In this document: piece by piece, positions 3,801-49,020 of the stretch
Layout of the letters: every line of letters begins with the position of its first letter
How positions within the stretch are numbered: the first letter of the stretch is position 1
NCBI RefSeq assembly: GCF_000263195.1
Contig: NC_018748.1
Location: 1,054,001-1,118,000 of the forward strand
Origin: Emticicia oligotrophica DSM 17448
GTDB taxonomy: Bacteria; Bacteroidota; Bacteroidia; Cytophagales; Spirosomataceae
Direction: 5' to 3'
Length of the DNA: 64,000 bases
Notes under the pieces: model-generated
What the model was told of the DNA's origin: nothing
Databases searched by the model: none
The model's input: only the letters and a program-made list of their open reading frames with translations
Program-made: the position numbers and the translations under genes

Positions 3801-4247
3801 ATGGCTACCATCTTCATTGAGGTCTTTCAACCATTCATTTTCTTTACTACGCTCAGGAGCAAAAATTTTGTGCAAAAATGCACGGCGGTCTTCAACGGTT
3901 TGTAAACCAATTGATTCGGTCATCCAATCACGGTGACCACGAATATCAAATTCAGAGTTCTTTTGTCGGTTAGTTCGAATGAGATAAACACGCCCTTGGT
4001 CATCAATTGACATAGCAACGGGGTCTGGAGCGAGTGAGTCTGAAGCCCAAAGACTCATCTGAATACCATCCGCAAGCTTAACGGCTATTTTTTCACGAAT
4101 TTCTTTGGCTTTCGTAACTGCCTTTGCGGGGTCTTCTTTTATAACCAGAGGTTTTTCTTTTTTTCCATACTTGGCACATGAAATAATCAGCACTGTGGAG
4201 GCCGATGCCCAGACCAATTTACTTTTTAAAAGTTTTCGAAGAGTCAT
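846..4247 (-). CDS. PVC-type haem-binding dehydrogenase with HEAT repeats (lipoprotein)
   Basis: This 1133-aa protein has a lipoprotein signal (VLIISC near residue 24). Roughly residues 45-500 form a beta-propeller like soluble glucose/sorbosone dehydrogenases, with repeated 'D.N.DG..D' loops and 'GPDGALYAADW'. About 510-930 are HEAT-type alpha-helical repeats. The C-terminal domain has the c-haem motif CVRCH (about residues 1013-1017), followed by GEGGSVGPNL, typical of the PVC haem-binding domain. Such proteins are thought to oxidise sugars or related alcohols in the periplasm and pass electrons to a cytochrome, but substrates are rarely known. A terminator follows. The ROK regulator is divergent across a 402-bp gap and could control it. 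Confidence 0.9.
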   Translation of the reverse strand: MTLRKLLKSKLVWASASTVLIISCAKYGKKEKPLVIKEDPAKAVTKAKEIREKIAVKLADGIQMSLWASDSLAPDPVAMSIDDQGRVYLIRTNRQKNSEFDIRGHRDWMTESIGLQTVEDRRAFLHKIFAPERSKENEWLKDLNEDGSHDWKDLAIEKDEVWRLEDTNNDGIADVSMRVLNDFFEEITDVAGGLLVKGKEMFIGIAPDLWRVKDTDGDGIFDKKTSISHGYGVHIGFSGHGMSGVTEGPDGRIYWNIGDIGANITTADGKKFEHPNSGIIARSNPDGSDFEIFASGLRNTHEFVFDEYGNLISSDNDGDHPGESERLVHVVEGSDAGWRSNWQYGKYTDPKNNKFNVWMDEKLFKPRWDGQAAYIIPPIMNYHNGPTGMVYNPGTALGSDWKNKFFLVEFVGTPTGSHIWSFGLKPKGASFVLDGEKDVVRGILPTGIQFGPDGALYAADWINGWDTKNYGRVWKLDVTKDKNDFEAIRKETKRLIQLNYGVQTEAMLYSLLSNADMRVRQKAQFELVNRGQKGFAQLTKAIEQRENQLARIHGIWGVGQLARQNKTFASPLMGLLKDKDEEIIAQATKIIGDIRLSSAGSELVALLKSSNPRIKFYAAEAIGRMAYQDAVPALIQMLETNNDEDVYIRHAGVLALSRIGKVEPIVALANNPSKALRTAAVLVLRRLKNDNIAIFLNDKDEYIVTEAARGINDDLSIPAALPALAATLAETRFTSEPLLRRAINAALRVGTAKEVDLLINFSTRTDIKDNIKAEALATLGTWNNPSVLDRVDGRYRGKLERDGALVKAKIQPYIGNFLKETNPETIIAMAGLLTELNIPDFNSELASIYTSSDNAKVKAAILPALNKLNYSQIEVAIKQGMDDKNESVRTVALSLLNNNNVSKESLPAIVNTIFTKGGIKEQQQMLIVLGKLALDKTKDILSDLIGQLSDKKLSPSVSLELKEAVDATGSEDLKAKVAAIKPGASPMDEYMESLFGGNRNEGRNIFNYNSTAQCVRCHNLGGEGGSVGPNLAKIGSKLTREQLLQALVEPSARLSPGYGTVSLKLKDGQEVTGILAKETEHELVITTSDAEPLEIPLSRIAKRENMPSSMPPMGSLLSKREIRDVVEFLSNLK

Positions 4248-22282: not shown

Positions 22283-24472
22283 ATGCAAGCCACCACAAAA
22301 GCTTTTATTGTGTGCTTCTTTGCACTACAACAAATATTTGCACAATCTTCACAATTACCTCTTTACCAAGAAAATAAGCAGACTGCCGATTGGCTCATTT
22401 CGAAACAAAACTTTAAGGCCGAAATCTACCAAGCTAATGGAGGGAAAGACCTTATTTTATCGAATGGTTTATTGAAACGTCAAATAAGAATTTCACCCAA
22501 TGCCGCAACCGTCGATTTCAAAAATCTACATACCAACGAGCAATTTGTCCGCTCAGTACGCCCCGAAGCAAGAATCACAATTAATGGAAAAATATATAAT
22601 GTCGGTGGTCTCTACGGACAAAAAGAACACGGCTATTTACTCAATGAATGGATTGAAAAATTAGAAGGTAAATCAGAAGATTTTCAATATAAAACATTCA
22701 AAGTTAATCCTCTTACCCCTCATGTAAATTTTAAATCTCGCACTTGGGCGATGAATCAAGAAAATCCGAAAGGAAAAGAATTAGAACTAATTTTTGATTC
22801 AAATTTACCCGAATTAAAAGGCATTTTAGTATCAGTGCATTATGAAATTTTTGATGATATTCCAACGATTTGCAAATGGGTAAGCGTTGAAAATAAAAGC
22901 AATAAGACACTCAAAATCAATCAGTTAGTTAATGAAATATTGGCAACACCCGAAGAAGAATCAGCCGTAGTGGGAAGTCCAGAACAAATGAAAAAACCAC
23001 AACGGATTTATATCGAAAATAATTATGCTTTCAATAATGCCATGCGTTATGAGTTATCCGACCAAGCCACGCATTGGAAGGTAGATTCTAGTTATACTTC
23101 GCAAGTTAATTATAATTATCAAACTCCGTGTGTATTAGAGGTTTATCCAAGTTTTGGTGTTGGAATCGAAATTTCAGCCAATCAATCTTACAAATCTATC
23201 CGTAGTTATGAACTCCTACTCGATTCTTATGACCGAGAAAGAAACGGCCTTGCACGCCGACGAATGTATGCGAAGCTCTTTCCTTACACCACCCAAAATC
23301 CAATTTTCATGCACCTAGTTAGTACCGACCCTAAACAGGTAAAATCGGTCATTGACCAATGTGCTGAAACAGGCTATGAAATGGTCATTTTGAGTTTTGG
23401 CAGCGGTTTAAATATGGAAGATTCTAGTGCAGCAAATATCAGAAAATACAAGGAATTGGCCGATTACGCACATAATAAAGGCATATTATTGGGCGGTTAT
23501 TCACTTTTTAGTAGTCGAAGAATTGACGATGAAAATGATGTAATTGACCCCAAAACTGGCTTACCCGATAAGGGTGCTTTTTTTGGAAATGCTCCATGTT
23601 TAGCCAGCCAATGGGGTATTAATTATTTAAATAACTTGAAAAAATTTATTACCGAAACTGGTTTCGACTTACTCGAACACGATGGCCCCTACCCTGGTGA
23701 TGTTTGTGCTTCTACCAAACACCCCGGCCATAAAGGTCTCGAAGATTCTCAGTGGGTACAGATGGAAATGCAGAAAGGTTTTTACCGCTGGCTGAATGAG
23801 CGAGGCGTATATATTAATGCCCCCGATTGGTATTTTTTAGATGGTTCACATAAAATTGCTTTGGGTTATCGAGAAGTGAATTTTTCACTTTCTCGTGAAC
23901 AACAAAAAATGTTAAACCGTCAAAATATCTTTGATGGGACTTGGGAAAAAACACCTTCAATGGGCTGGGGTTTTGTGCCACTTACGAAATATCAAGGCGG
24001 TGGTGCAGAGGCAATTTTAGAACCTTTGAGTGAACATTTAAAAGATTATGAGCAGTTAATGATGCAATATTATGGTGCTGGGGTGCAAGCCTGTTATCGA
24101 GGTCCACGCCTTTATGATACCGAGACGACCAAACAAACAGTTAAGCAAACAATTGATTGGTACAAGAAGTACCGCCCAATTCTAAACGCTGATATTATTC
24201 ATCTTCGTCGCCCTGATGGTCGAGATTGGGACGGAATTATGCACGCAAACCCTTCTTTGAAAGAAAAAGGTTTCGTGATGCTCTACAATCCACTAAAAGA
24301 AAACATTAGTCGCAAAGTAAAGATTCCTGTTTATTATACAGGTCTATCTGATAAGGTTACAATACGAGAAAAAGAAGGTAAAAGCAAAATACATACAGTT
24401 AGTAGAAGTTATGAAGTGGAAGTAGATGTAAATATCCCCGCTGAAAGTTTTACATGGTTAGTTTTAGAGTAA
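22283..24472 (+). CDS. Exported glycosidase-like protein of uncertain family (729 aa)
   Basis: After a signal peptide (about residues 1-20, ending ALQQIFAQ), a long beta-rich N-terminal region is followed by a TIM-barrel-like half with 'MVILSFGSGLN', 'YAHNKGILLGGYSLF' and 'FDLLEHDGPYPGD'. Asp467 in that last motif sits where clan GH-D enzymes (GH27/GH36) place their nucleophile. The C-terminus is a small beta domain ('FVMLYNPL', 'IPAESFTWLVLE'). This layout resembles alpha-galactosidase-type enzymes, but no diagnostic GH36 motif such as KWDxN is present. I call it a putative glycoside hydrolase with moderate confidence in the fold and low confidence in the activity. Confidence 0.75.
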   Translation: MQATTKAFIVCFFALQQIFAQSSQLPLYQENKQTADWLISKQNFKAEIYQANGGKDLILSNGLLKRQIRISPNAATVDFKNLHTNEQFVRSVRPEARITINGKIYNVGGLYGQKEHGYLLNEWIEKLEGKSEDFQYKTFKVNPLTPHVNFKSRTWAMNQENPKGKELELIFDSNLPELKGILVSVHYEIFDDIPTICKWVSVENKSNKTLKINQLVNEILATPEEESAVVGSPEQMKKPQRIYIENNYAFNNAMRYELSDQATHWKVDSSYTSQVNYNYQTPCVLEVYPSFGVGIEISANQSYKSIRSYELLLDSYDRERNGLARRRMYAKLFPYTTQNPIFMHLVSTDPKQVKSVIDQCAETGYEMVILSFGSGLNMEDSSAANIRKYKELADYAHNKGILLGGYSLFSSRRIDDENDVIDPKTGLPDKGAFFGNAPCLASQWGINYLNNLKKFITETGFDLLEHDGPYPGDVCASTKHPGHKGLEDSQWVQMEMQKGFYRWLNERGVYINAPDWYFLDGSHKIALGYREVNFSLSREQQKMLNRQNIFDGTWEKTPSMGWGFVPLTKYQGGGAEAILEPLSEHLKDYEQLMMQYYGAGVQACYRGPRLYDTETTKQTVKQTIDWYKKYRPILNADIIHLRRPDGRDWDGIMHANPSLKEKGFVMLYNPLKENISRKVKIPVYYTGLSDKVTIREKEGKSKIHTVSRSYEVEVDVNIPAESFTWLVLE

Positions 24473-24545: not shown

Positions 24546-25760
24546 TTAGTAATCTATGAGTTTCTTTTTTAACAATTTATAATAAACAAAGGATAGAGCT
24601 TTTGCAAAAGCATTTAATAACACATATTGCTCAGAAAATGTAATCAAACGTCTATGCTCTAAAATATGGGGAGTTGATAGAACTTTAACTATTAATAGAA
24701 AAGTACCCCACCAATTCAACTTTTCATCTTGTAAATGACGATATAATGAAAAATATTTAAATAGTTGCGAATTATCACTTAATTGTATTGAATCTTCCCA
24801 AGATTCAATGACTTTACTAACTATTTTATAATCTTTTTCAACATGTTTGAGCTTTTTAGAGGAGAGGTTTTCACATAGATACATTCCAAGTTCGAATGTA
24901 CGTACCATCTGCATTTCAGATGCATATTTTAATAATAATTTTATATCTAAATATGAATATTTACTCCGAAAAGCTATCAAATCACAAACATCTTTAAGTC
25001 GCATCCAGCAATCTCTACCTCCATGATGATTTAAAAGTAATTTAAATATACCTTTCGGGTTTGGAACCCAGATTTTCTTTTTTCCAAAATCTTCTAATAT
25101 TATATCTTTGAAAAAATCTTCAATATTTATTACATTCCCTCTATACTTTTCACTGATTGCCCAATGATAATCTATGTTTCTTACCTCATTTCTTTTTTGT
25201 TTTCTTCGCAGGCTTAATTCTCGACTTGGTATTTTTAACAAATTATCTAGAACATTTTCATTAGAAAAATCTAAATTTATTTTCTTTTCAATTTTAACCT
25301 CAAAACCCGCATTTAACAGTGCTTTTAAACCCTCTTTTGCATGTTCTTCCTTAACTATAATATCAATATCCGAACTTTCCCTAAGAGCTAAATTATGATA
25401 TAGCTTTTCTGAAAAAAGAATTCCTTTGTATGGTAAAACCTCTATGTTCTTTTCCTGTAATATCGTACTGATATTTTCTAGCTCATTTTTATCTGTAAGA
25501 CTACTTAGTACTTGTATCTTAACAAATTTTTCTAGTTGTTGAATATACATATTACTAAACCCAACCCTCCTACAAGCCTCATAAAATACCGGCCGAATCC
25601 GATGATAGGCAAGCATTTTTTTTATTCTTTCCCAATCTACTGATGATAAATTAATAAGGCTTGAAAAATGAAGGGTAGGCTCGTCTAATAAAACCACCTT
25701 TATCGATTCTATTAAAATCTGAAGTTCTAATGAAATTTTTAATTCTTTAATCTTCATCAA
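24546..25760 (-). CDS. Nucleotidyltransferase family protein of a lasso-like RiPP locus
   Basis: The 404-aa protein has the minimal nucleotidyltransferase pattern seen in lasso-peptide clusters (NTP_transf_5 type): 'LPYKGILFSEKLY' (Lys112-Gly113), then 'SSDIDIIV' (residues 129-136) with the metal-binding Asp131 and Asp133. A second conserved stretch, 'NHHGGRDCWMRLKDVCDLIAF', lies around residues 265-285. In characterised lasso systems such a protein has been linked to adding a sugar to the phosphorylated C-terminus (pseudomycoidin, from memory). Its start overlaps the B2 stop by 4 nt (ATGA), so it is translationally coupled and is the last gene of the leftward arm. Confidence 0.85.
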   Translation of the reverse strand: MMKIKELKISLELQILIESIKVVLLDEPTLHFSSLINLSSVDWERIKKMLAYHRIRPVFYEACRRVGFSNMYIQQLEKFVKIQVLSSLTDKNELENISTILQEKNIEVLPYKGILFSEKLYHNLALRESSDIDIIVKEEHAKEGLKALLNAGFEVKIEKKINLDFSNENVLDNLLKIPSRELSLRRKQKRNEVRNIDYHWAISEKYRGNVINIEDFFKDIILEDFGKKKIWVPNPKGIFKLLLNHHGGRDCWMRLKDVCDLIAFRSKYSYLDIKLLLKYASEMQMVRTFELGMYLCENLSSKKLKHVEKDYKIVSKVIESWEDSIQLSDNSQLFKYFSLYRHLQDEKLNWWGTFLLIVKVLSTPHILEHRRLITFSEQYVLLNAFAKALSFVYYKLLKKKLIDY

Positions 25761-26185
25761 TAAACATTTTGAACTACGTATTCCTCAACCTTGCAAAAGC
25801 CCGTTATCATTTCTCCATTTACAACTGTCCATGCATGTCCTTCAATTTGACCATTTAGGTTTTTCTTAAACCCTACAAAAATCTGGTAAGGAATATTGAA
25901 AAAGCTAAAAAGAATCATCGCTTGATAAGCCTGATGTCTACATACATTTTCCCAAAATATATATTTACCAACCACATTGATAGCCAAGCGAATATCCTTT
26001 ATAAAGCTTTTATCAAAATCTTTTTCATTATTAACATCCTTGTAGATATTCTTAAATTTGGCAGCATGTTTGAAAAAACGGAATAATATAAAACTATAAA
26101 TAGCTAAAAAACACACCACTATTATTAATAATTTTTGACGCAAAGTAAATCTAAAAAAGCTTATTATTTTTCTGAGAATCTTCAT
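25757..26185 (-). CDS. Lasso-type B2 leader peptidase (transglutaminase-like)
   Basis: This 142-aa protein matches lasso peptide biosynthesis B2 proteins in size and motifs. An N-terminal hydrophobic stretch (about 18-36) is followed by 'WENVCRHQAYQAMIL' with candidate catalytic Cys82 and 'IEGHAWTVVNGEMITGF' with His117. The usual third acidic residue is not obvious at the expected place (Asn123-Gly-Glu125), so the triad may use another residue. B2 cleaves the leader from the precursor while B1 holds it. Its start overlaps the B1 stop by one base (TAATG). Confidence 0.88.
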   Translation of the reverse strand: MKILRKIISFFRFTLRQKLLIIVVCFLAIYSFILFRFFKHAAKFKNIYKDVNNEKDFDKSFIKDIRLAINVVGKYIFWENVCRHQAYQAMILFSFFNIPYQIFVGFKKNLNGQIEGHAWTVVNGEMITGFCKVEEYVVQNVY

Positions 26186-26442
26186 TAGATAATATACTTT
26201 TTATCTGCTAATTTCAGAAGAGCCGCATGTACTTCTCGTGCACATTTTTCTTCCGAAATGTCGTATTCATCACAAAGATTTCTGACAATCTGCTCGGTTG
26301 TCTTTCTATTCTCAATACCCTGTAAAATCTTGAAAAATGTTTCGTTTAATGATACATATTCATTACTTTCAGTATCATAAATAACGCCCTCTTCACCTAA
26401 TTGAGTAAAGAGAATTTTTTCAGTGTTTAATTGGTAGTTCAT
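26185..26442 (-). CDS. PqqD-like B1 protein (RiPP recognition element)
   Basis: The 85-aa product has the PqqD/RRE fold signature: 'GVIYDTESNEYVSLNETF' (beta hairpin), then helical 'TTEQIVRNLCDEYDIS' and 'EVHAALLKLADKKYII'. This is the lasso B1 component that binds the leader peptide and presents it to the B2 protease and cyclase. It is encoded 22 bp after the 44-aa precursor-like gene and directly before B2, the standard B1-B2 order. Confidence 0.92.
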   Translation of the reverse strand: MNYQLNTEKILFTQLGEEGVIYDTESNEYVSLNETFFKILQGIENRKTTEQIVRNLCDEYDISEEKCAREVHAALLKLADKKYII

Positions 26443-26464
26443 TGGAAAAAATTAAATAGTTTAA

Positions 26465-26599
26465 TTACGAAGCAACCGTAGCCAGCAAGTCAATATTGAG
26501 TTTATTTTCAATTTCTATAAATTCCATTGTTGGATTTATCCAAGTTTTTTTTTCTACTTGAATATCCATAACTTCAGAAGTCTCTTCTTGTGTTTTCAT
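26465..26599 (-). CDS. Precursor-like peptide 2 of the RiPP locus (44 aa)
   Basis: This small frame was found by reading the gap between the sulfotransferase and B1 genes. The peptide has a charged N-terminus, then KKTWINPTMEFIEI (residues 17-30) and ends LNIDLLATVAS. The KKxWIxPxME motif is shared with the 46-aa peptide at 28783 and resembles the Y/WxxPxL leader motif bound by lasso B1 proteins. Both peptides end Ala-Ser. After the motif only Glu31 and Asp37 are acidic, and no Thr precedes a sensible cleavage site. A classical lasso macrolactam therefore looks unlikely here; it could be a different product, a decoy or a decaying copy. Confidence 0.75.
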   Translation of the reverse strand: MKTQEETSEVMDIQVEKKTWINPTMEFIEIENKLNIDLLATVAS

Positions 26600-26640
26600 A
26601 GTATTTTATTAATGTTTAGTTTTTGTATGTATAAATTATA

Positions 26641-27495
26641 TTACCAATAGCCAAATCTTCTCATCATTGGCTCATTGTAGTGTCTTATTTTTTCAATTTG
26701 CTCTTCGCTCAACTCTTCTTTCCAACGGCCTACTTGGCCTTTAAAAAAGAAAGTGGATGATGGATTCTGTTTCTCTATAAATCCTTTTTCCTGTTCTTTT
26801 TTTTGTAGTTTTTCAAACTGACTCTCGTTAATAGCAAATCGTATCTGTTCCTCACTCACGTCTAACCCTATTGCTTGTACGGCTGCTTTAAATGTCTCAA
26901 ATGGTCTTTCTTTCATATCTTCATATCTCATGAAGTGTACCGGAAAATTGGGTCTTGTTAGCCAACTTTCTACATGCATTGACCAAGTACCTAATGGCTG
27001 ATAAAATTGATTATTGGTTGAATTTTTCAAATTACCAAAATAACCTGTTGGATTAATAATATAATTTCCAATTGCTTCTTCAACTGATTTTCCGATATGA
27101 TTGGCCAATGATAATGCTATATCAAGCGGATTTCTGACAAAATATATAGCTATTTTTGATGGAGTTTCAGGAATAAGCGGCTGTGCATCATTCTCTGAAA
27201 ATGTAAAAGCATCATGAATTTTAATATAAACTTTTTTTTTGCTACTGTTAGATAAATGGGTAAATGCAATTCGTTGAAATTGTTCGATTTGAGTACGACT
27301 CAGATAATCGGCCTCAAGGTCTAAAGTATTTTCAACGTGATTTTTACTTGAAAATATACCATCAGTCACCATTTGGTTTAAGTCAATATTTTTTTCATTT
27401 AAAAGAGCCGTTAGAAATGACCGAAACCACGTATTGCCTGATTTAGGATAAGATGCCAACCAAACAATTTGTTTATTAACAGAAATCTCATCCAT
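26641..27495 (-). CDS. PAPS-dependent sulfotransferase in the RiPP locus
   Basis: The 284-aa protein has the 5'-phosphosulfate loop YPKSGNTW (residues 16-23), the 3'-phosphate-binding 'YFVRNPLDIALSLANH' (about 135-150), a substrate/His region 'THLSNSS', and the C-terminal 'FFFKGQVGRWKEEL', all typical of cytosolic sulfotransferases. It would transfer sulfate from PAPS to a hydroxyl or amine. It begins 4 bp after the kinase stop and lies directly before precursor 2, so it is a likely tailoring enzyme for the peptide, though the acceptor residue is unknown. Confidence 0.9.
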   Translation of the reverse strand: MDEISVNKQIVWLASYPKSGNTWFRSFLTALLNEKNIDLNQMVTDGIFSSKNHVENTLDLEADYLSRTQIEQFQRIAFTHLSNSSKKKVYIKIHDAFTFSENDAQPLIPETPSKIAIYFVRNPLDIALSLANHIGKSVEEAIGNYIINPTGYFGNLKNSTNNQFYQPLGTWSMHVESWLTRPNFPVHFMRYEDMKERPFETFKAAVQAIGLDVSEEQIRFAINESQFEKLQKKEQEKGFIEKQNPSSTFFFKGQVGRWKEELSEEQIEKIRHYNEPMMRRFGYW

Positions 27496-27499
27496 TATT

Positions 27500-28441
27500 C
27501 TATTGAACTAATATTTCATTTTTGCTGAATAGATTGATAATCTGCTCCTCGATTGCCTCTGCAAAACTGTCAAAAGTCGGAATAGCTGTAGGGCGAACGG
27601 CTTTCCAAGCAGGAATAGCATTAATAATGCCCGTAAGATGCTCAAATTGAATAACATGTTTTTTCATACCACTTAACCATTGCCTGCGATATATATTGTT
27701 TCCTAATTGTTGCATGGCATGGCTAAGCTTTACCCTACTGATACTTATTTCACTTCCTTCTGCGGCTAAAAACACTATTCCTGCCACTTCTACTTTGTGT
27801 GGTACGAAAGCTTTATGAAACATAAATCCATATTTACCTAACTCAATATCAGAGCGTAAGTTGAGCTTACAGGATTCATCTAAAATCTGTTGTACTTTGA
27901 TTGTATTCTGCCACAAGCGGATCATCGGATAGGAAGCCTGTGCAAAACATTTTCCACCTTCAATACTCAAGACTGCCGTATCATCTGTAAAAGGAGCATA
28001 CCCTTTCTGCTGGAGCATTATTGAAGTTGTAGATTTACCTGTTCTTGAAGGAGCAGCAAATAATAATACCCGATTTTCATCAACAAAAATACCAGACACA
28101 TGAAATGGAATCAAATTTCGTTGAAACAAAGCGGCCGCCATACAATTCGAATAGAAAAACAATAATACTTCACTCCAGTCACCATTTAGTTTTTCAATAA
28201 TAATTTCCTTTCCATCTCTTATATAATAGCGAGCAACATCTGGTACCGTGTATAAAAGTTCATTTTCGTTAAAAACAGAAAAAGGTTTTACCTCTAAGGC
28301 TGGATTTTCTAACTTGTCAGGAACCTTGCCTTCAGAAACAAATATACTTTGTTGTTCATCAAAGACATCTGTTGTCTTAATAAATGCCACTAATTCTAAT
28401 GATGATACTATTGGAATACCATAAGCAAGGTATTTAAACAT
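27500..28441 (-). CDS. HPr kinase-like P-loop kinase, lasso-type tailoring kinase
   Basis: The 313-aa protein carries the HPr-kinase C-terminal fold: 'PFHVSGIFVD' (His114), Walker A APSRTGKST (130-138) and 'FTDDTAVLSI' (Asp153-Asp154). The N-terminal part matches the short-HprK-type kinases found in lasso clusters rather than classical HPr kinase. Characterised relatives (paeninodin-type systems) phosphorylate the side chain of the precursor's C-terminal Ser. Both peptides of this locus end in Ser, which fits. It is the first gene of the leftward arm, divergent from precursor 1. Confidence 0.88.
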   Translation of the reverse strand: MFKYLAYGIPIVSSLELVAFIKTTDVFDEQQSIFVSEGKVPDKLENPALEVKPFSVFNENELLYTVPDVARYYIRDGKEIIIEKLNGDWSEVLLFFYSNCMAAALFQRNLIPFHVSGIFVDENRVLLFAAPSRTGKSTTSIMLQQKGYAPFTDDTAVLSIEGGKCFAQASYPMIRLWQNTIKVQQILDESCKLNLRSDIELGKYGFMFHKAFVPHKVEVAGIVFLAAEGSEISISRVKLSHAMQQLGNNIYRRQWLSGMKKHVIQFEHLTGIINAIPAWKAVRPTAIPTFDSFAEAIEEQIINLFSKNEILVQ

Positions 28442-28782
28442 AGCTCTTTTTTTTGCAAATTAAGTACTTTTGATGATACTTAAAAAGTAATTTTTTTTAA
28501 AATTCATAAAAAAAAATAGAAAGTATAGCAAAATCACTTATTAAATGTAATTTTGTGAAATTACAAGATTTTATTCTGATTTTACATTTTTTTTAGGTCA
28601 ATTACGAGCAAAAAAAATATAAATTAAAAGAGCTGGTAGTGTTTTAGAAGTTGTAAATAATCAATATATAAGTACTTACAAACCAAGTCCACCCTATTAT
28701 AACCTTGCTATTATAAATGGTATCCGTTCGGTATCATAAATTTAATTTTCTTTTCATTAATTAATTTAATTTTTTAAATCCT
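28442..28782. other. Divergent promoter region of the RiPP locus
   Basis: This 341-bp gap, about 75-80% A+T by eye, lies between the leftward kinase start and the rightward precursor 1 start and should contain both promoters. TAATTTTG at 28548-28555 and TAACCTTG at 28700-28707 resemble the TAnnTTTG element, but no convincing -33 TTG accompanies them. No further precursor-like frame was found. Confidence 0.4.
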
Positions 28783-28923
28783 ATGGAAAAAAACTTAGCA
28801 AACAACACAGAACAAAGCAACGAACAAACTTCAAAAAAGCAATGGATTGAACCTGCGATGGAAAGTTTAGAGATAACTAATAATACTCTTTTCGGAGCTG
28901 ATAAAGGAGAATTTGCAAGTTGA
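28783..28923 (+). CDS. Precursor-like peptide 1 of the RiPP locus (46 aa)
   Basis: A polar N-terminus is followed by KKQWIEPAMESLEITNNTL (residues 18-36) and a short C-terminal FGADKGEFAS (37-46). W21, P24 and M26 fit the lasso leader motif (Y/WxxPxL). Thr35 could be the conserved Thr at position -2, giving a core starting at Phe37 with Glu43 as the seventh residue, the smallest ring size known. Only Phe-Ala-Ser would remain as tail, very short for threading. A core starting at Gly38 would put the Glu at position 6. The Ala-Ser end matches the kinase gene opposite. A perfect hairpin follows. Confidence 0.8.
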   Translation: MEKNLANNTEQSNEQTSKKQWIEPAMESLEITNNTLFGADKGEFAS

Positions 28924-28932
28924 TAGACTTTA

Positions 28933-28974
28933 CTAAATTTCTCGTTGAGTTAGTTTTCAAAACGAGAAATTTAG
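28933..28974 (+). terminator. Perfect hairpin after precursor 1
   Basis: Arms of 14 nt (28933-28946 and 28961-28974) pair perfectly around a 14-nt loop, starting 9 nt after the precursor stop, with an A/T-rich tail containing TTTTA. It could be a partial terminator or stabiliser giving much more precursor than enzyme mRNA, as is common in RiPP operons. Confidence 0.7.
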
Positions 28975-29034
28975 ATTTTAATAAATAATTACCCCCTACT
29001 TATCGTTTGTCTTTGATATTTTGATAAATAGTAT

Positions 29035-29523
29035 ATGCAAACTGAACTTTCAGAAATATGCAAAGAATGTGGCATGTGTTGTGACGGTACGCTATTCGGT
29101 AAAGCCCCTATTGATGAGTATGAACTAAAATTGGTTCAATATTTTGATTCCGAAAGTATTACCGAGAAAGAGGGTAAATTTTATTTTAAACATCCCTGTA
29201 TTTACTTTGATAGTTGTTGTACAGTGTATGATAAGGTTCGACCTAATATTTGCACTACTTATTTCTGCTCTCCACTAAAAAAAGTACAACAAGGAGAATC
29301 GGAATTAAAAGATGCTCAAGAAATTATCAAAAAAGCCTTAAAGTATCGTTCAGAAATCCTCGTTATTGCTTCTCAAATTGAAATCTACAAAACATTTAGT
29401 ATTAGTCAACTCCTTAAAGAAGTACTTCCAATTATCAATGAAAGAATTAAGCCTCATCATGAACTTTGGCTTAAATTAATTGGGTTTCAGAGTATTCTTG
29501 CTAAAATAATAGGGTCAAAATAA
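29035..29523 (+). CDS. YkgJ-type cysteine-cluster protein in the RiPP locus
   Basis: The 162-aa protein begins 'EICKECGMCCDGTLFG' and continues with 'HPCIYFDSCCTVYDKVRPNICTTYFC'. The arrangement of about nine Cys is typical of YkgJ/CxxCxxCC proteins believed to bind zinc or an iron-sulfur cluster. The C-terminal half is helical. No reaction is established for the family. The gene sits 8 bp before the cyclase gene, so it is probably co-expressed and may belong to the peptide pathway. Confidence 0.83.
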   Translation: MQTELSEICKECGMCCDGTLFGKAPIDEYELKLVQYFDSESITEKEGKFYFKHPCIYFDSCCTVYDKVRPNICTTYFCSPLKKVQQGESELKDAQEIIKKALKYRSEILVIASQIEIYKTFSISQLLKEVLPIINERIKPHHELWLKLIGFQSILAKIIGSK

Positions 29524-29530
29524 ATATAAT

Positions 29531-31408
29531 ATGAGTTTGCTCTACGGCATTTTCGATAAAAATCTAAATAATGTGGTCCCTAAAATGGAAGAAATGTATA
29601 GGGGTATTCAGCATTTACCACATGTTAAACATCAATTTTTCGCAAAAGATTATTTTTCTACTGGGCACTTACTTACTTACAATACACCCGAATCACTTTT
29701 TGAAGTTCAACCTCAATTTTTATCCGAACAGCAAATAATTTTTACCTCGACTGGGCGGCTTGATAATCGAGAGGATTTAGCCAAACGCTTAGATTTAAAA
29801 CTTCACGCACAACTAAGCGACGGTGAACTCATAAAAAAAGCCTATTTAAAGTGGGGTAAAGAAAGCCCACGTTATTTAAGAGGTGATTGGTCGTTTGTCT
29901 GCTATCATATACTTGAAGAAGAATTATTTTTGGCTCGTGACCATCATGGCTACACTTCTCTTTATTACTTTTTAGATGGAGAGCAATTTGCATTTTCATC
30001 TTCGGCGAAAGCCATTTTCGCTTTAAAAAGTTTTACGAAAGAAATTAATGTTGAGGTTTTTGTAAAAAAACTCATAATTTGGAAATTTGATGAAATCAAG
30101 GGCCAACTTTCATATAAAAACTTAAATTGCCTACCTCCTGCTCATACACTAACGTTTAAAAATGGCCAAATAAGCCTACAACGTTATTGGTTTCCTGAGA
30201 ATGTTTCATTGCGGCTTTACAAAAAACCGACCTTATACGCAGAAGAATTACGTGAGATTTTTCAAGAAGCTGTACGTGTACGCTTACGAAGTTACAAGCC
30301 TGTAAGTTCCATGCTTAGTGGAGGTTTTGATTCAAGCTCAGTAACGAGCATGGCAGCCTCAATATTAGCCAAAGAAGGTAAACGACTGACTACTTTTAGT
30401 CATATACCTTTTTATAAAGAAAAAGTAGCACAAGAAAATTTCGAACACTATTTCCCAGATGAAAGCAAGAATATTTTAGCAACTGCTCAACATGCTGGCA
30501 ATATAGATCCTATTCTCTTGACTTCTGAGAATATTTCTCCAATTGAGGGATTTATCAAAGCTTTTGATAATGATGATAATCTGTTTCATGCCGCATGTAA
30601 TGCTTTCTGGCTAGTAGACTTATCTGCACAAGCAGCTAAAAATGGTTTTGGTACATTGTTATCTGGTGAAATGGGGAATGCAACTATTTCATATACAGGA
30701 TTAGATTATTTATTACCCATCAATCATTCTGTTTATTTAAAAAATCCTATACAGCTTCTCAAAAGAATTGTTAAACCATTGCTTATTAAGCATTATCCTA
30801 CGTATTATGCTTCCAAAAATAAAACTTTATTATCTTATATTGATAAGAACTATTTATCTGAAAATATTTTGAAAGAATGGCATATTATAGAAGATATAAA
30901 TAACAATAACCGAAATTTTATACCTTATTTCCCTACTTCTAAAGCAGGAATGTTACGTATTTTAGACATAGGCAATAATCCTCGATGTCTAAGTGGAGCA
31001 GTAGATGGACATACTCATGGCTTTGAATATAGAGACCCTACGGGCGATGTAAATGTAATTGAATATTGCCTTTCAATACCCAACCATGCTTTTTTTGATA
31101 AAAATCTCAACACAAAAGACATCTTCAAAACTATGATGAATGGAATACTGCCAGACCAAGTACTTTTTGAGAAGAAGAAAGGGTTGCAGGCATCTGATGT
31201 TCGTCACCGAGTTTTGAATGATAAAACTCGTGTAAATGATTTATTAAGTCAATTAGAACAAAGTTCACAAGTAAAAGAACTCATAAATACGACTAAACTA
31301 AAACAAAATTGGCAACGTATACAAACTGAAGAAATTACGAATATCTTAGACATTCAAACTTTTGTAAAAGGATTGATGTTTGGGTATTTTGTATGGAAAA
31401 AGAATTAA
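29531..31408 (+). CDS. Asparagine synthetase-like lasso cyclase (C protein)
   Basis: The 625-aa protein has an N-terminal class II amidotransferase-like domain with GRLDNR (75-80), GDWSF (118-122) and RDHHG (136-140), and a C-terminal synthetase domain with the ATP pyrophosphatase loop SGGFDSS (263-269). Residue 2 is Ser, so the N-terminal Cys needed for glutaminase activity is missing, as in lasso C proteins that close a macrolactam instead of making Asn. 'LLSGEMGNATIS' is another conserved synthetase-domain segment. Together with B1 and B2 it completes the minimal lasso set. Confidence 0.9.
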   Translation: MSLLYGIFDKNLNNVVPKMEEMYRGIQHLPHVKHQFFAKDYFSTGHLLTYNTPESLFEVQPQFLSEQQIIFTSTGRLDNREDLAKRLDLKLHAQLSDGELIKKAYLKWGKESPRYLRGDWSFVCYHILEEELFLARDHHGYTSLYYFLDGEQFAFSSSAKAIFALKSFTKEINVEVFVKKLIIWKFDEIKGQLSYKNLNCLPPAHTLTFKNGQISLQRYWFPENVSLRLYKKPTLYAEELREIFQEAVRVRLRSYKPVSSMLSGGFDSSSVTSMAASILAKEGKRLTTFSHIPFYKEKVAQENFEHYFPDESKNILATAQHAGNIDPILLTSENISPIEGFIKAFDNDDNLFHAACNAFWLVDLSAQAAKNGFGTLLSGEMGNATISYTGLDYLLPINHSVYLKNPIQLLKRIVKPLLIKHYPTYYASKNKTLLSYIDKNYLSENILKEWHIIEDINNNNRNFIPYFPTSKAGMLRILDIGNNPRCLSGAVDGHTHGFEYRDPTGDVNVIEYCLSIPNHAFFDKNLNTKDIFKTMMNGILPDQVLFEKKKGLQASDVRHRVLNDKTRVNDLLSQLEQSSQVKELINTTKLKQNWQRIQTEEITNILDIQTFVKGLMFGYFVWKKN

Positions 31409-31485: not shown

Positions 31486-31556
31486 AAAACTAAATGATTT
31501 ATTTTGGGGTTATTTGTTTGCTTCATGACTCTCATAAAGCGAATTTTTTGACCAAT

Positions 31557-32441
31557 ATGGAAAAATATCTAAAAATTATTCAAGGAGCCTATTCGGGATA
31601 TTTTAATTATTTTATCAATGAAATTCTCAATCCGAGTTGGCATAACTATTTTTATTGGCTGGTAGGGGCATCGTTAGCTATTTGGTTGCTCGAAATAAAA
31701 TTTCCGTGGCGAAAAAACCAACCTCTTATTCGCCAGGATTTTTGGCTTGATATTTTTTATCTATTCTGGAATTACTTCTTATTTTCATTAGTGGCCTATA
31801 ATGCTCTTTCAATGGTAGGAGTTGAAGCTTTTAATGATTTTCTTCGACTTTTCGGTATTACTAACATTGTGGCAATCAATGTGAGCCATCTACCATTTTG
31901 GTCTAAATTACTTATTATTTTTATTATTCGTGACTTTATGCAATGGGGCATTCATCGCCTATTACATAGAGTACCTTGGATGTGGGAATTTCATAAGGTT
32001 CATCACAGCACCGAAGAAATGGGCTTTGCCGCTCTCCTTCGTTATCACTGGATGGAAAATGTCATCTACAGAAGCCTCGAATATATTCCACTTGCGATGA
32101 TTGGTGTGGGAGTGACTGACTTTTTCATTGTTCATATTTTCACGTTAGTAACGGGCCAACTTGGACATGCCAATTTAAAAATCAACCTTGGTCCATTCAG
32201 ATACTTATTTAATGGCCCGCAAATGCACCTTTGGCACCATGCTAAATATTTGCCAGAAAGTCATCCTTATGGTTTTAATTATGGCATTACACTCAGTATT
32301 TGGGACTTTATTTTTGGTACAAACTACTGGCCATCAGACGATGAAAACCTTCCAGTTGGATTACCTGAAGAAGATAAATTTCCGCATGATTTTGTTGGAC
32401 AAAACCTTCGTCCATTCGAAAGAATATTTTCAAAAAAATGA
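31557..32441 (+). CDS. Sterol desaturase/fatty acid hydroxylase superfamily membrane protein
   Basis: The ATG at 31557 gives 294 aa; the 21-codon upstream extension is unsupported. Several membrane segments surround the di-iron His motifs: 'HRLLHRVPWMWEFHKVHHS' (HxxxH and HxxHH) and 'MHLWHHAKYLPESHPYG'. Such enzymes hydroxylate or desaturate lipids with O2. It lies 148 bp after the cyclase, and its stop overlaps the PhzF start by 4 nt. It is probably not part of the peptide pathway, although a lipid or peptide hydroxylation cannot be excluded. Confidence 0.92.
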   Translation: MEKYLKIIQGAYSGYFNYFINEILNPSWHNYFYWLVGASLAIWLLEIKFPWRKNQPLIRQDFWLDIFYLFWNYFLFSLVAYNALSMVGVEAFNDFLRLFGITNIVAINVSHLPFWSKLLIIFIIRDFMQWGIHRLLHRVPWMWEFHKVHHSTEEMGFAALLRYHWMENVIYRSLEYIPLAMIGVGVTDFFIVHIFTLVTGQLGHANLKINLGPFRYLFNGPQMHLWHHAKYLPESHPYGFNYGITLSIWDFIFGTNYWPSDDENLPVGLPEEDKFPHDFVGQNLRPFERIFSKK

Positions 32442-45858: not shown

Positions 45859-48800
45859 TTACTTCTCCATCGGATGCTCTGAAAGCAATTTTGATGCGTT
45901 GTAGATATCCTTTTGTTGTAAAACTGATGCTCTAACAACCTTCACTTTTTCGGGCGAAACTGCAGGAGCATTATTACCAAATGAATTTCGAACGTAAGTC
46001 AATACAGCTGCAATTTCTTTATCGGTCAATAAACCCTCAAATGGAGTCATCGGTACTTGGCCAGCATATTTTTTACCGTTTACCTCTATCTGACCCATCA
46101 TCCCTTTCAAGACAATTTTTATCGCTCGGTCTTCATTGCCCGTTACCCAAGTAGTGCCTGCCAATGGCGGGAAACCCGATGCCGTTAAGCCTTTTCCATC
46201 TGCTTGATGACAAGTTCCGCAGTAACCTTCTTTTGTATAAATTTTCTTGCCAATGTTAAATAACTCTAAATCAGTTCCTTTAAGATTCGACTTTTCAGCT
46301 ATTTCTTTCACAGGTTTAACCGCCATTCCGCTGGTATGAGCCACAGCGGTCTCGTGGGCGTGAACCATCCATTCATCCATCGGTTTCTTTTTAGCTTCCG
46401 CCAAAATCGGAAGTGCTTTTTCTTTACTCAACCATGAAGCTCCTACGATTGCTCCTAAACGAACTCTACTATTTTCATCACGTACCGCTTGCATAAATAA
46501 AGCAGCTTGGTCAGGCACTTGATGCCCAACAAAACGAAGCACTTCAACCGCTGCCGCACGAGCATGATAATCTTTAGCTTTGAGCATCTGACGAAGTAAT
46601 TTTTGGTCAACTTTATCTAAGCCCCAACTTACCCACAAAGCTTCCAAAAGATGATGCTCATAACGAGGGTCTGCTTTATCTAAATTTGCTACCCACTGAT
46701 TAAGTTTTGGTAAAACCTCGGCTGCATTTCTACCACGTAATTCACGACGTGTGCGATAACGGCTTCTATATTCAGGTAATTTGAGATTTTCTAATAAGGT
46801 TTCGACACTCGCCCCAGCAATTTTGGCAGGCGTTACGAGTGGTCTTGATGGATAAGTGATGCGATACACACGACCATGTACGTGGTCACGAAGTGGGTCA
46901 CGAGCATTGTGTTGCATGTGTCCAATCAAAATATTATGCCAATCAATGAGGTAAAGTGAGCCATCGGGTGCAATTTCCATATCTACTGGACGGAAATTTC
47001 GGTCTTCACTTACCACCAAATCTTGTCGATGTTTGGTTTTATAACCAGTACCATCATCTACAATAGCATGTTGCTTAGTACCTAAAAATCCGATTGTATT
47101 ATTGATGAGCATATCGCCTTGTACCTCATCAGGGAAATGGCGACTCCACAAAAACTCAAGGCCAGAAGTCGGGCGAACCATGTGGTCTTTTTCAATCAAC
47201 TGAACACCTTTATGTGTGTATTCGCCGTAGCGGGGCAAAACCGTTCCGGGAGTCATCCAACGCACATCAGGACTTGAGGTTTCGGCAAAAAATGGTTGAC
47301 CCCAATCATCAAAAGCAATCCCCCACGGATTTGGTATTGATAATTGAGCAATTCGATATAATTTATGTAATTGTGGAGCATAACGATAAAACCCGCCATT
47401 AGTTGCACGAACTGTACCATAAGGCGTTTCTACATTGGTGTGCAAGAAAACTCCCTCACCACCATAAATTGCCCCCGAAGGATCAGCACAAAAGGCACTA
47501 TTATTATGGTGTGTATCGTGGTCATCAAAGCCACTCAGCAAAATTTCTACTTTATCAGCTTTATCATCGCCATTCGTATCAGTAAATAATTTAAGGTTTG
47601 TTCCCTGCGATACATATACACCTTCTGGTGCTATTTCAAAACCTAATGGTAAGTGTAAACCGTCAGCAAAAACTGTTTGCTTATCAGCTTTACCATCGCT
47701 ATTCGTATCTTCCAAAATCAAGATTTTATCATTTGGCTTGGTATCACCCGGCTTATAGTGCGGGTAGCTTGGCATAGTAGCCACCCATAAACGTCCCTTA
47801 TTATCAAATGACATTTGAACAGGATTGGCCAAGTCATTAAACTCTTTTTCAGAAGCAAATAACTCAATTTTATAACCCGCTGGCACTTTTAGTTTATTGA
47901 GGGCATCTTGTCCGTATAAGTATTCTAAACTTCCATTTTTTTCAGGATTGAAATTGGTCTTTACTGGCGGAAGTGTACGAGTATTTTTATCGGCAGCAGC
48001 CACATCCATCTTTTCACCTTTCGAGGCAGCCAACCAAATGGCATTGTCTCGAATATCGGTCATTTGACGAATCTTTTCGATTTCTGCTGGATAATTATCT
48101 GGTCCAAAAGGATTGTATCTTCTACCATAAACGTGTACACCGTTTGGAATTTTGTAATCATTGTGCCACATCCAGTTTTTCTCCATTACGGCATCATAAA
48201 TTAACTGGCGACGTTCTTCGGCTTTAGCTACAGCTTTACCAAAAATTTTATCGGTCAAGAAAACGCCAAACTTCTTATATCCTTCAGCTGTAAGTTGCGA
48301 ACCATCAATTGTCAATGGCTCTGTAGAAGCAGCATACCAAGCTTTTGAAGGGGTGAAGGCATCAACAAATAAAACCTTATTTTTAGCAGAAACTTCACGC
48401 ATTGCGTTGGTATAGAGTAATAAATTTTGGTTTTCTTTTACTCCATTCGGTAGGTCATATTTGCTTGACAAATCTTCAAAAGCAATTGGAGAAACAAGCA
48501 CTAATTGTGGACTTGACTGACCGTTATATTTCTGGCTCAATGTGTATTTGATGAAGGCATCTAACTCAGCCTTAAAAGTGGCTAAACCCGCAATTCCTTG
48601 AAAAGACTCGCTGTAGCCAAACATTCCGATAATTACATCAGTCTTCAAACGCGTAAGCCATTGGTCTGGTGTATCGAAAAAACCTTGACTATCAGAGTTT
48701 TTAGCGTATTCAGTTTGAAATTTCTCAGCACCATCAAAAGCCCAAGGAAATTTTCTACTAGCATGTGGGCGAAACCCTGGGGTATCGCCACCATCACACA

Positions 48801-49020
48801 TATTTCTGATAAACAAAAGGCTATCAGGATAGCGTACGTGCATTTCGGTTTCGAAATGGTCATAATTAATCATTCTCGACCCAAGATTACCCCCAATAAG
48901 CGATATATGCATGCTTTTCGCAACCTTGACGGAGTCAGAGGGTGGTGCTGGTAAAAATGCACTAATCAGAAAAACTGTTAGTACAAATAGGGTTAATAAT
49001 ATTTTGTTGTTAAGTTTCAT
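45859..49020 (-). CDS. PVC-type haem-binding dehydrogenase fused to an SGNH hydrolase-like domain
   Basis: This 1053-aa exported protein starts with a signal (about 1-27). Residues about 35-265 resemble an SGNH/GDSL-type hydrolase ('HISLIGGNLGSRMIN', 'DVIIGMFGYSESF', 'DGSQLTAEGYKKFG'), although the usual GDS is replaced by GGN. About 375-750 form the membrane-bound dehydrogenase beta-propeller, followed by HEAT-type helices and a class I cytochrome c domain with CGTCH (about 933-937) and 'MTPFEGLLTDKEIAAVLTYV' supplying a Met ligand. It differs from the other two haem dehydrogenases in its cytochrome. The ThuA gene is upstream on the same strand. Confidence 0.88.
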   Translation of the reverse strand: MKLNNKILLTLFVLTVFLISAFLPAPPSDSVKVAKSMHISLIGGNLGSRMINYDHFETEMHVRYPDSLLFIRNMCDGGDTPGFRPHASRKFPWAFDGAEKFQTEYAKNSDSQGFFDTPDQWLTRLKTDVIIGMFGYSESFQGIAGLATFKAELDAFIKYTLSQKYNGQSSPQLVLVSPIAFEDLSSKYDLPNGVKENQNLLLYTNAMREVSAKNKVLFVDAFTPSKAWYAASTEPLTIDGSQLTAEGYKKFGVFLTDKIFGKAVAKAEERRQLIYDAVMEKNWMWHNDYKIPNGVHVYGRRYNPFGPDNYPAEIEKIRQMTDIRDNAIWLAASKGEKMDVAAADKNTRTLPPVKTNFNPEKNGSLEYLYGQDALNKLKVPAGYKIELFASEKEFNDLANPVQMSFDNKGRLWVATMPSYPHYKPGDTKPNDKILILEDTNSDGKADKQTVFADGLHLPLGFEIAPEGVYVSQGTNLKLFTDTNGDDKADKVEILLSGFDDHDTHHNNSAFCADPSGAIYGGEGVFLHTNVETPYGTVRATNGGFYRYAPQLHKLYRIAQLSIPNPWGIAFDDWGQPFFAETSSPDVRWMTPGTVLPRYGEYTHKGVQLIEKDHMVRPTSGLEFLWSRHFPDEVQGDMLINNTIGFLGTKQHAIVDDGTGYKTKHRQDLVVSEDRNFRPVDMEIAPDGSLYLIDWHNILIGHMQHNARDPLRDHVHGRVYRITYPSRPLVTPAKIAGASVETLLENLKLPEYRSRYRTRRELRGRNAAEVLPKLNQWVANLDKADPRYEHHLLEALWVSWGLDKVDQKLLRQMLKAKDYHARAAAVEVLRFVGHQVPDQAALFMQAVRDENSRVRLGAIVGASWLSKEKALPILAEAKKKPMDEWMVHAHETAVAHTSGMAVKPVKEIAEKSNLKGTDLELFNIGKKIYTKEGYCGTCHQADGKGLTASGFPPLAGTTWVTGNEDRAIKIVLKGMMGQIEVNGKKYAGQVPMTPFEGLLTDKEIAAVLTYVRNSFGNNAPAVSPEKVKVVRASVLQQKDIYNASKLLSEHPMEK

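Follow-up and report, generated by a model that had tools for sequence, protein, structure and literature searches.

A probable paeninodin-type lasso peptide cluster with a sulfotransferase and two unlike precursors in Emticicia oligotrophica

We analyzed a 64,000-nucleotide stretch of the 5.2 Mb genome of Emticicia oligotrophica DSM 17448 (Bacteroidota; contig NC_018748.1, positions 1,054,001 to 1,118,000), hereafter the window, and examined a gene cluster at window positions 24546–31408 that probably makes a lasso peptide, a type of ribosomally synthesized and post-translationally modified peptide (RiPP). The nine open reading frames (ORFs) that an earlier note on this DNA had placed there are all complete and lie where it put them. 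They form two divergent arms separated by a 341-bp gap (Table 1). Running outward from this gap, the minus arm encodes a kinase (K), a sulfotransferase (ST), a first precursor (A1), the B1 and B2 proteins and a nucleotidyltransferase-family protein (N), and the plus arm encodes a second precursor (A2), a YkgJ-like protein and the cyclase-like C protein.

Table 1. Genes and other features of the cluster, in window coordinates.
Feature	Position	Strand	Basis
N, nucleotidyltransferase-family protein, probable PsmN-like tailoring enzyme	24546..25760	-	PF14907
B2, leader peptidase, transglutaminase-like Cys protease	25757..26185	-	PF13471, NF033537, Cys82 and His117
B1, PqqD-like leader-binding protein (RiPP recognition element, RRE)	26185..26442	-	PF05402, homology to Priestia B1
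A1, 44-aa precursor, leader motif WINPTM, C-terminal Ser	26465..26599	-	sequence
ST, sulfotransferase	26641..27495	-	PF00685, YPKSGNTW and RNPLD stretches
K, HprK-like kinase, H114/K136/D153/D154	27500..28441	-	alignments, fold, homologue in paeninodin-type cluster
Perfect inverted repeat TGTAATTT-N4-AAATTACA, possible operator	28546..28565		gap between the two arms
A2, 46-aa precursor, leader motif WIEPAM, C-terminal Ser	28783..28923	+	sequence
YkgJ-like Cys-cluster protein	29035..29523	+	PF03692 just under cut-off; stop 7 bases before C start
C, Asn-synthetase-like macrolactam cyclase, without Cys2, SGGFDSS loop	29531..31408	+	PF00733, NF033535

The earlier note had read the region as a lasso-type RiPP locus in a Bacteroidota host and had assigned its genes one by one; family matches and the leader motif support the reading, and the assignments hold up. 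Each of the three core proteins scored above the cut-off of the Pfam family proposed for it: B1 matches PF05402 with 53.7 bits (cut-off 23.4), B2 matches PF13471 with 43.1 bits (cut-off 26) and C matches PF00733 with 96.5 bits (cut-off 21). B2 also passes the NCBIfam lasso B2 model NF033537 (42.1 bits, cut-off 33), so that it is not an unrelated protease. Its Cys82 and His117 are invariant in 10/10 aligned sequences, and both residues, as well as an [ST]G turn, recur in the B2 of a Priestia cluster annotated as lasso; B2 gave nothing useful when searched by profile against solved structures.

Asparagine synthetases require a Cys at position 2, the glutaminase Cys, which C lacks. The top NCBIfam match of C is the lasso cyclase model NF033535 (295.7 bits), which fits better than the AsnB model (160.8 bits, whose cut-off of 267.1 is not reached), and a profile search of solved structures with C returned amidotransferases and asparagine synthetases. 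That C is an ordinary asparagine synthetase in a cluster unrelated to lasso peptides is a reading that its match to the asparagine synthase Pfam model would allow, yet the missing Cys2, the better fit of the lasso model and the company of B1, B2 and precursors that C keeps in relatives make it extremely improbable.

C, B1 and K are homologous to their counterparts in the annotated paeninodin-type cluster of Priestia. C is 27% identical over 635 columns to the annotated lasso cyclase on the Priestia plasmid, B1 aligns to the B1 of that cluster (E 5e-8 in a single comparison), and K matches the gene in its kinase position (tblastn, E 6e-11, 90% of query, 20.9% identity). The Priestia record runs cyclase, paeninodin-family precursor, kinase homologue annotated as an aldolase, B1, B2 and ATP-binding cassette (ABC) transporter. 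These homologues, together with the HprK-like kinase and the nucleotidyltransferase, support the paeninodin likeness that had been suggested from the letters.

K has no match in Pfam and only weak ones in NCBIfam, among them HprK-related kinase A (TIGR04352; 20.3 bits, cut-off 200). Its predicted structure has a mean predicted local distance difference test score (pLDDT) of 91.6, and all 50 of the 50 Foldseek matches listed for the model are phosphoenolpyruvate carboxykinases with template-modeling (TM) scores of ~0.5, with no HPr kinase among the matches listed. Phosphoenolpyruvate carboxykinase and HPr kinase belong to one superfamily. When K was searched by profile against solved structures, HPr kinase came up only at E 0.36, and nothing useful resulted. 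Four residues of K, H114, K136, D153 and D154, are invariant in an alignment of 7 rows and in 17/17 rows of a second. A His-Lys-Asp-Asp set has been described for lasso kinases (PMC9266682), and its assignment to these four residues is our own reading of the alignment against that paper, drawn from the 7 and 17 aligned rows. Membership of the cluster in the HPr-rel-A system was considered and rejected, as both of its models stayed below their cut-offs (TIGR04352 kinase, 20.3 versus 200; TIGR04353 PqqD, 24.0 versus 35).

The remaining enzymes have clearer families. N matches PF14907 with 117.5 bits (cut-off 31.2) and ST matches PF00685 with 100.1 bits (cut-off 22); the stretches YPKSGNTW and RNPLD of ST, which we take to have a role in binding 3'-phosphoadenosine-5'-phosphosulfate (PAPS), are invariant in 4/4 aligned sequences. 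Tyrosine was rejected as the general target of ST: Tyr-bearing cores are commoner in loci with ST (35/58 versus 5/41, or 8/19 versus 5/41 once Aquirufa is left out), yet both window cores are free of Tyr. The Cys-cluster protein falls just below the PF03692 cut-off (22.9 versus 23), and structure prediction for it (3 sequences) gave a mean pLDDT of 64.4 and led no further. Its gene adjoins C in the window, in related loci L024 and L037 and, beyond the set of loci described below, in L143. The protein may conceivably be a metal-dependent tailoring enzyme or a helper of C; our literature search found no paper linking YkgJ to lasso peptides.

Both small peptides bear the lasso leader motif WxxPxM and both end in Ser, in keeping with the earlier note's description of two leader-bearing peptides. 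What that note missed is that the two are not equivalent. We tried four leader registers, with the motif Trp at -12, -14, -15 or -16. An Asp or Glu falls at core position 7–9 of A2 in all four and of A1 in none, which rules out that the A1 acid is missing merely through one wrong choice of register. Such a lack of a ring acid is found in only 11 of the 99 unique precursors surveyed below. Thr stands at -2 of A2 in the W-16 register only, with Ile there in the W-12 register, and at -2 of A1 in none of the four. The A2 register is ambiguous; we favor the W-12 cut, because the precursor closest to A2 by BLAST, that of L018 (WIEPMMESFSIE/LAGGDGGD-LAGESAS, E 2.8e-7, with the slash marking the putative cut), lines up with it and because any other reading would reduce the tail to three residues. 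The most likely A2 cut would thus be Ile(-2)Thr(-1)/NNTLFGAD-KGEFAS, a predicted core of 14 residues with Asp8 as ring acid and a tail of 6. A leader with Ile at -2 has been validated in another lasso system (PMC10368454). A1 has no match to the paeninodin family model NF033524.

To place the cluster among its relatives, we analyzed 39 non-redundant loci, the window included, which were selected through C or K, so that their C and K counts are no evidence. A kinase alignment scan of named genomes gave 16 loci (Emticicia, Arundinibacter, Lunatimonas, Aquirufa, Algoriphagus, Mongoliitalea, a Niabella metagenome-assembled genome and others). A kinase profile built from 7 aligned sequences matched in 77 of 222 genomes of the family at E ≤ 1e-20 and in 43 of 390 in a sample of the order, and a search with the window C found strong relatives (E ≤ 1e-60) in 9/222 family genomes, a count that takes in the genome of the window itself. 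Across the 39 loci, K is present in 36, B1 in 35, C in 31, B2 in 29, N in 19, ST in 15, an exporter-like ABC gene in 9 and a YkgJ-like gene in 6. Same-strand pairs with ST immediately after K number 13, and B1 comes before B2 in 22; apart from these pairs gene order is fluid. The divergent layout, which the earlier note had offered together with the sulfotransferase as the possible mark of a new subtype, is therefore no subtype marker, and we ruled it out as a stable arrangement. Further putative tailoring genes occur in related loci: a TauD-type dioxygenase in L024 (12759–13616), a methyltransferase in L013 (6380–7144) and a glycosyltransferase in L014 (11208–12554).

We then surveyed precursors across these loci, starting from 103 small ORFs with a suitably placed WxxPx[hydrophobic] motif. 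Three were dropped by eye as chance or truncated (L029 20766, L102 17809 and L020 13714) and one as a duplicate, leaving 99 from 35 loci; a probable L027 precursor (434–568) failed the filter and is not counted. WxxP peptides accordingly stand beside these genes in relatives, the conservation on which the claim for the two small peptides had been made to depend. Since both the gene set and the leader motif recur in relatives, their joint occurrence is beyond chance. C-terminal Ser is found in 54/60 unique precursors from outside Aquirufa, as compared to 8.3% Ser in the rest of their cores; the kinases PadeK, ThcoK and PsmK are reported to modify this residue (PMC9266682, PMC8498205).

In the largest precursor class (W-12), the motif Trp stands at -12 relative to the core and position -2 is hydrophobic (Ile, Val or Leu). 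Where C is in the locus, 23 of 32 members of this class have an acid at core position 7–9, against a mean of 9.5 and a maximum of 17 in 2000 shuffles; for loci whose fetched stretch holds no C the figure is 2 of 10, against a shuffled mean of 2.6. Among the nine C-in-locus members that miss are A1, the L023 precursor, which has an acid at position 8 only with Trp at -14, and five L019 precursors situated 6–8 kb from a C. In other registers, each group being read in its own, an acid falls at 7–9 in 11/11 precursors of L015–L017 (Thr at -2) and in 33/39 of Aquirufa.

Some of these precursor arrays are of interest in themselves. The Aquirufa loci L020, L021 and L022 (equal to L033, L028 and L031) hold 14, 11 and 14 precursor genes per K-ST-B1-B2 set with one C, a number that looks unusually high, and their cores often read x7-D-GG-x-K-x-Y. 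L019 (16018–17338; genome G103, Emticicia sp. 21SJ11W-3; also L135) has five consecutive WxxP precursors, all Ser-terminal; two have an acid-free core, two carry LDPTG close to the end, and none of K, B1, B2 and N adjoins them. Close to the C-terminus, an LDP motif (LLDPH, LLDPD, LLDPLS, LDPTG) recurs in several acid-poor Emticicia precursors from L100, L101, L105, L019 and L025.

Gene homologies, conserved catalytic residues, the leader motif, the C-terminal Ser, the ring acid and the gene packing are what we observe at the locus. From these we infer the reactions, their order, the threading, the exact core start and the targets of ST, N and the YkgJ-like protein. Our preferred reading, with a probability of about 0.77, is that the locus is a paeninodin-type lasso peptide cluster that works as follows. 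B1 would bind and present the WxxPxM leaders of both precursors, and K would phosphorylate the C-terminal Ser on the still linear precursor, before folding, as PadeK does. N may then add a sugar or a nucleotide to that phosphate, a hexose by analogy with PsmN, and ST may sulfate a Ser or Thr hydroxyl or the added group, a choice of target that we favor because neither window core has Tyr. B2 would remove the leader, most likely after Ile(-2)-X(-1), and C would link the N-terminal amine of the A2 core to its ring acid, most likely Asp8, closing the ring about the threaded tail. A1 would probably be bound, cut and decorated by the same enzymes and perhaps not cyclised.

A number of observations count against this scheme. 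The best NCBIfam models fall short of their cut-offs for two of the core enzymes, the lasso PqqD model NF033536 being the top match of B1 at 37.0 bits (cut-off 80) and the lasso cyclase model requiring 525 bits of C, and A2 matches NF033524 only weakly (13.4 versus 27). A1 (..EIE/NKLNIDLLATVAS) breaks the lasso core rule, having an acid at 7–9 in 0/4 registers. The W-12 rule was set post hoc, after the sequences had been viewed, and A2 itself lies outside that count. A regular expression written for the kinase motif recovered only 23 of the 39 kinases. In Aquirufa (three loci), only 8/39 unique precursors end in Ser despite the presence of K, so that the C-terminal Ser need not always be the target of K, and Ser3 is a possible target for such kinases (PMC10368454, PMC13381572). 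Finally, there is no ABC exporter between 24546 and 31408, nor among the window ORFs searched against families (18 of the 43 of at least 150 aa). Since the cluster has no exporter, the product would be exported by another gene or remain inside.

Two further alternatives bear on the scheme as a whole. C might close a ring without threading it, giving branched-cyclic peptides; topology is unreadable from sequence and the predicted cores are short, with a tail of only 6 residues in A2, yet C, B1 and B2 match the full lasso set by homology and the cores follow a lasso-like pattern, and we hold this outcome to be unlikely. Alternatively, the locus might be decaying or silent and A1 a drifting relic, for which broken related loci offer precedents (L097 with K and ST in pieces, L105 with N in two pieces). 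The nine window ORFs, however, are all intact and tightly packed, and we consider such decay very unlikely.

We consider it quite possible, if somewhat short of an even chance, that A2 gives a lasso and A1 a linear phosphorylated (glycosylated, sulfated) peptide, similar to the linear polyphosphorylated peptides (LPPs) of Bacillota, the minus arm K-ST-A1-B1-B2-N being complete without C. RRE, HprK-like kinase and NTP (nucleoside triphosphate) transferase have been shown experimentally to make LPPs with no cyclase (PMC13381572), although these systems have a signal-peptidase-like enzyme in place of B2. In relatives, acid-less precursors make up 6/8 in L025, L100, L101 and L105 versus 5/91 elsewhere (Fisher p 1e-5), 6/10 versus 5/89 with the inclusion of L096 and L134, whose fetched stretches are likewise free of C (p 7e-5), and 4/5 versus 7/94 for two genomes without any C (p 4e-4), p values that serve as a guide only, since relatives are not independent samples and the grouping is post hoc. 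These two genomes, G101 (L025; also G222) and G104 (L100), are 94% and 99% complete and contain K, B1, B2, N and such precursors, one core of E. aquatica (G101) being entirely acid-free, with no C match at E ≤ 0.001; a C match, in some cases partial, was found in 6 of the 8 genomes searched together. Thus, a cyclase-free B1-B2-K-N set exists in close relatives.

Several points count against a linear product from A1. L101 (no B1, B2 or N) and L105 (no B2 found beside its split N) look partly decayed and may be relics, and their genomes (G103 and G105) carry C elsewhere. Ring acids do occur in the precursors of L096 and L134, although neither fetched stretch contains C; for L096, a C-like match lies just beyond that stretch, ~12 kb from its precursor. 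The five acid-less W-12 precursors of L019 have a C within 6–8 kb, A1 still contains one Asp, and in the window C is encoded 2.9 kb off, with nothing known to bar A1 from it.

As an observation on related kinase loci, a compact B1-B2-K-N operon with no C in the fetched stretch was found in 13/16 of those examined, from several genera of the family (L111, L137–L141, L144, L145 and L147–L151). No WxxP precursor was recognisable near these operons, and the small conserved ORFs beside them included no convincing one.

A1 may instead be a second lasso precursor in an unusual register, with a leader that stops one or two residues sooner (ring Glu1–Asp7 or Ile1–Asp8, tail LLATVAS) or with a six-residue ring to Asp6. 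Its gene is flanked by ST and B1, all three on one strand, it has the leader motif and the C-terminal Ser, its Asp is one to two residues off a usable position, and leader spacing varies in relatives. However, the spacings assigned in relatives (Trp at -12, -14, -15 and -16) are no shorter and none puts an A1 acid at 7–9, and we know of no lasso peptide with a six-residue ring. We consider a lasso from A1 possible, though well short of even odds. More tentative still is a picture that joins these strands, in which the shared B1/B2/K/ST/N set serves both precursors, A2 being tied by C and A1 released as a linear peptide with a C-terminal phosphate, sulfated and/or glycosylated. Some C-less Emticicia would then keep the linear branch only, and the knot would be an optional extension of a phosphopeptide pathway guided by the leader.

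As for the borders of the cluster, the gene 3' of C, which starts at 31494, shares 83–89% identity with its counterparts in 6/10 other genomes of the genus, and the genes from there onward are conserved in relatives. On the other side, the gene 5' of the cluster (22283–24472) is present at the same site in 3/6 regions compared, with unrelated ORFs between. With conserved flanks and unrelated intervening ORFs in relatives, the cluster is limited to 24546–31408 and occupies a variable site. Genome G100 has an ST homologue and a WxxP precursor (L134) ~2 kb away from the same conserved neighbour. We rejected the fatty-acid hydroxylase family gene at 31494–32441 as a member: a gene of the same family occurs in L096 but is only 32% identical over 155 residues, and the conservation of the window gene in the genus also speaks against membership. 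The inverted repeat between the arms, a possible operator, has 8-bp arms and a 4-bp spacer, with 1 exact copy genome-wide and 1 other site with one mismatch. A search of the inter-arm gap for a Bacteroidota-type promoter found two -7-like boxes and no -33 partner. Elsewhere in the window, two large DUF7133/HEAT/cytochrome c proteins (846–4247 and 45859–49020), the second adjoining a ThuA-like gene, are apparently unrelated to the cluster.

Compared to known systems, the locus is closest in makeup to paeninodin-type clusters, with which it shares B1 and B2 as separate proteins, a C protein (27% identity to the C of an annotated member), an HprK-like kinase and a Ser-ending precursor. It or its relatives differ from them in their Bacteroidota host, shorter leader spacing and, in the largest relative class, Ile, Val or Leu at -2, and the locus adds ST, the YkgJ-like protein and two unlike precursors while having no exporter in the cluster. 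The kinase and nucleotidyltransferase genes recall pseudomycoidin, a phosphoglycosylated lasso peptide, although here N is a separate gene in an ST-bearing cluster. The Bradymonas BsfA system shares Ile at leader -2, the kinase, B1 and B2, but its kinase targets Ser3 and its leader has Tyr at -17 (PMC10368454), whereas here most leaders place the motif Trp at -12 and it is the C-terminal Ser that is conserved. In LPPs, the cyclase-free work of RRE, HprK-like kinase and NTP transferase would suit A1 and the C-less loci; these systems differ in a SipW-like peptidase, a YxxPxVLxHQxIxFETxxS leader and an MsbA-like exporter (PMC13381572), whereas the window locus has B2 and C. A signal peptidase model found no match among the nine window genes. 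Several precursors with one leader motif are known from the same source (PMC13381572).

Kinase and nucleotidyltransferase have been characterised in Firmicutes lasso clusters, and an untested sulfotransferase gene is mentioned in such clusters as well (Zhu et al. 2016, as told in the 2021 review PMC8498205). Given these precedents the gene set is no new class, and the sulfotransferase is not supported as the sign of a new subtype; what differs here is that ST directly follows K and that the pair recurs in the Cytophagales-type loci analyzed (13 pairs). A putative lasso cluster of Amoebophilus asiaticus, a Bacteroidota symbiont of amoebae, is already in print (PMC8831229), and the parts seen of PMC9576775 and PMC10352776 contain no Bacteroidota lasso cluster of this kind. 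Among openly accessible work we found no description of this gene set, which does not prove its absence, and a search on lasso sulfation returned no paper with either term in title or abstract.

Bacteroidetes have been named an under-explored source of lasso peptides (PMC7533575). The locus makes the function of sulfotransferases in lasso clusters testable, a sulfate on Ser, Thr or a sugar being expected from its Tyr-free cores. It also offers a natural pair of precursors for one enzyme set, one cyclisable and one seemingly not, and the C-less Emticicia loci provide a way to ask whether the lasso and linear phosphopeptide pathways form one family.

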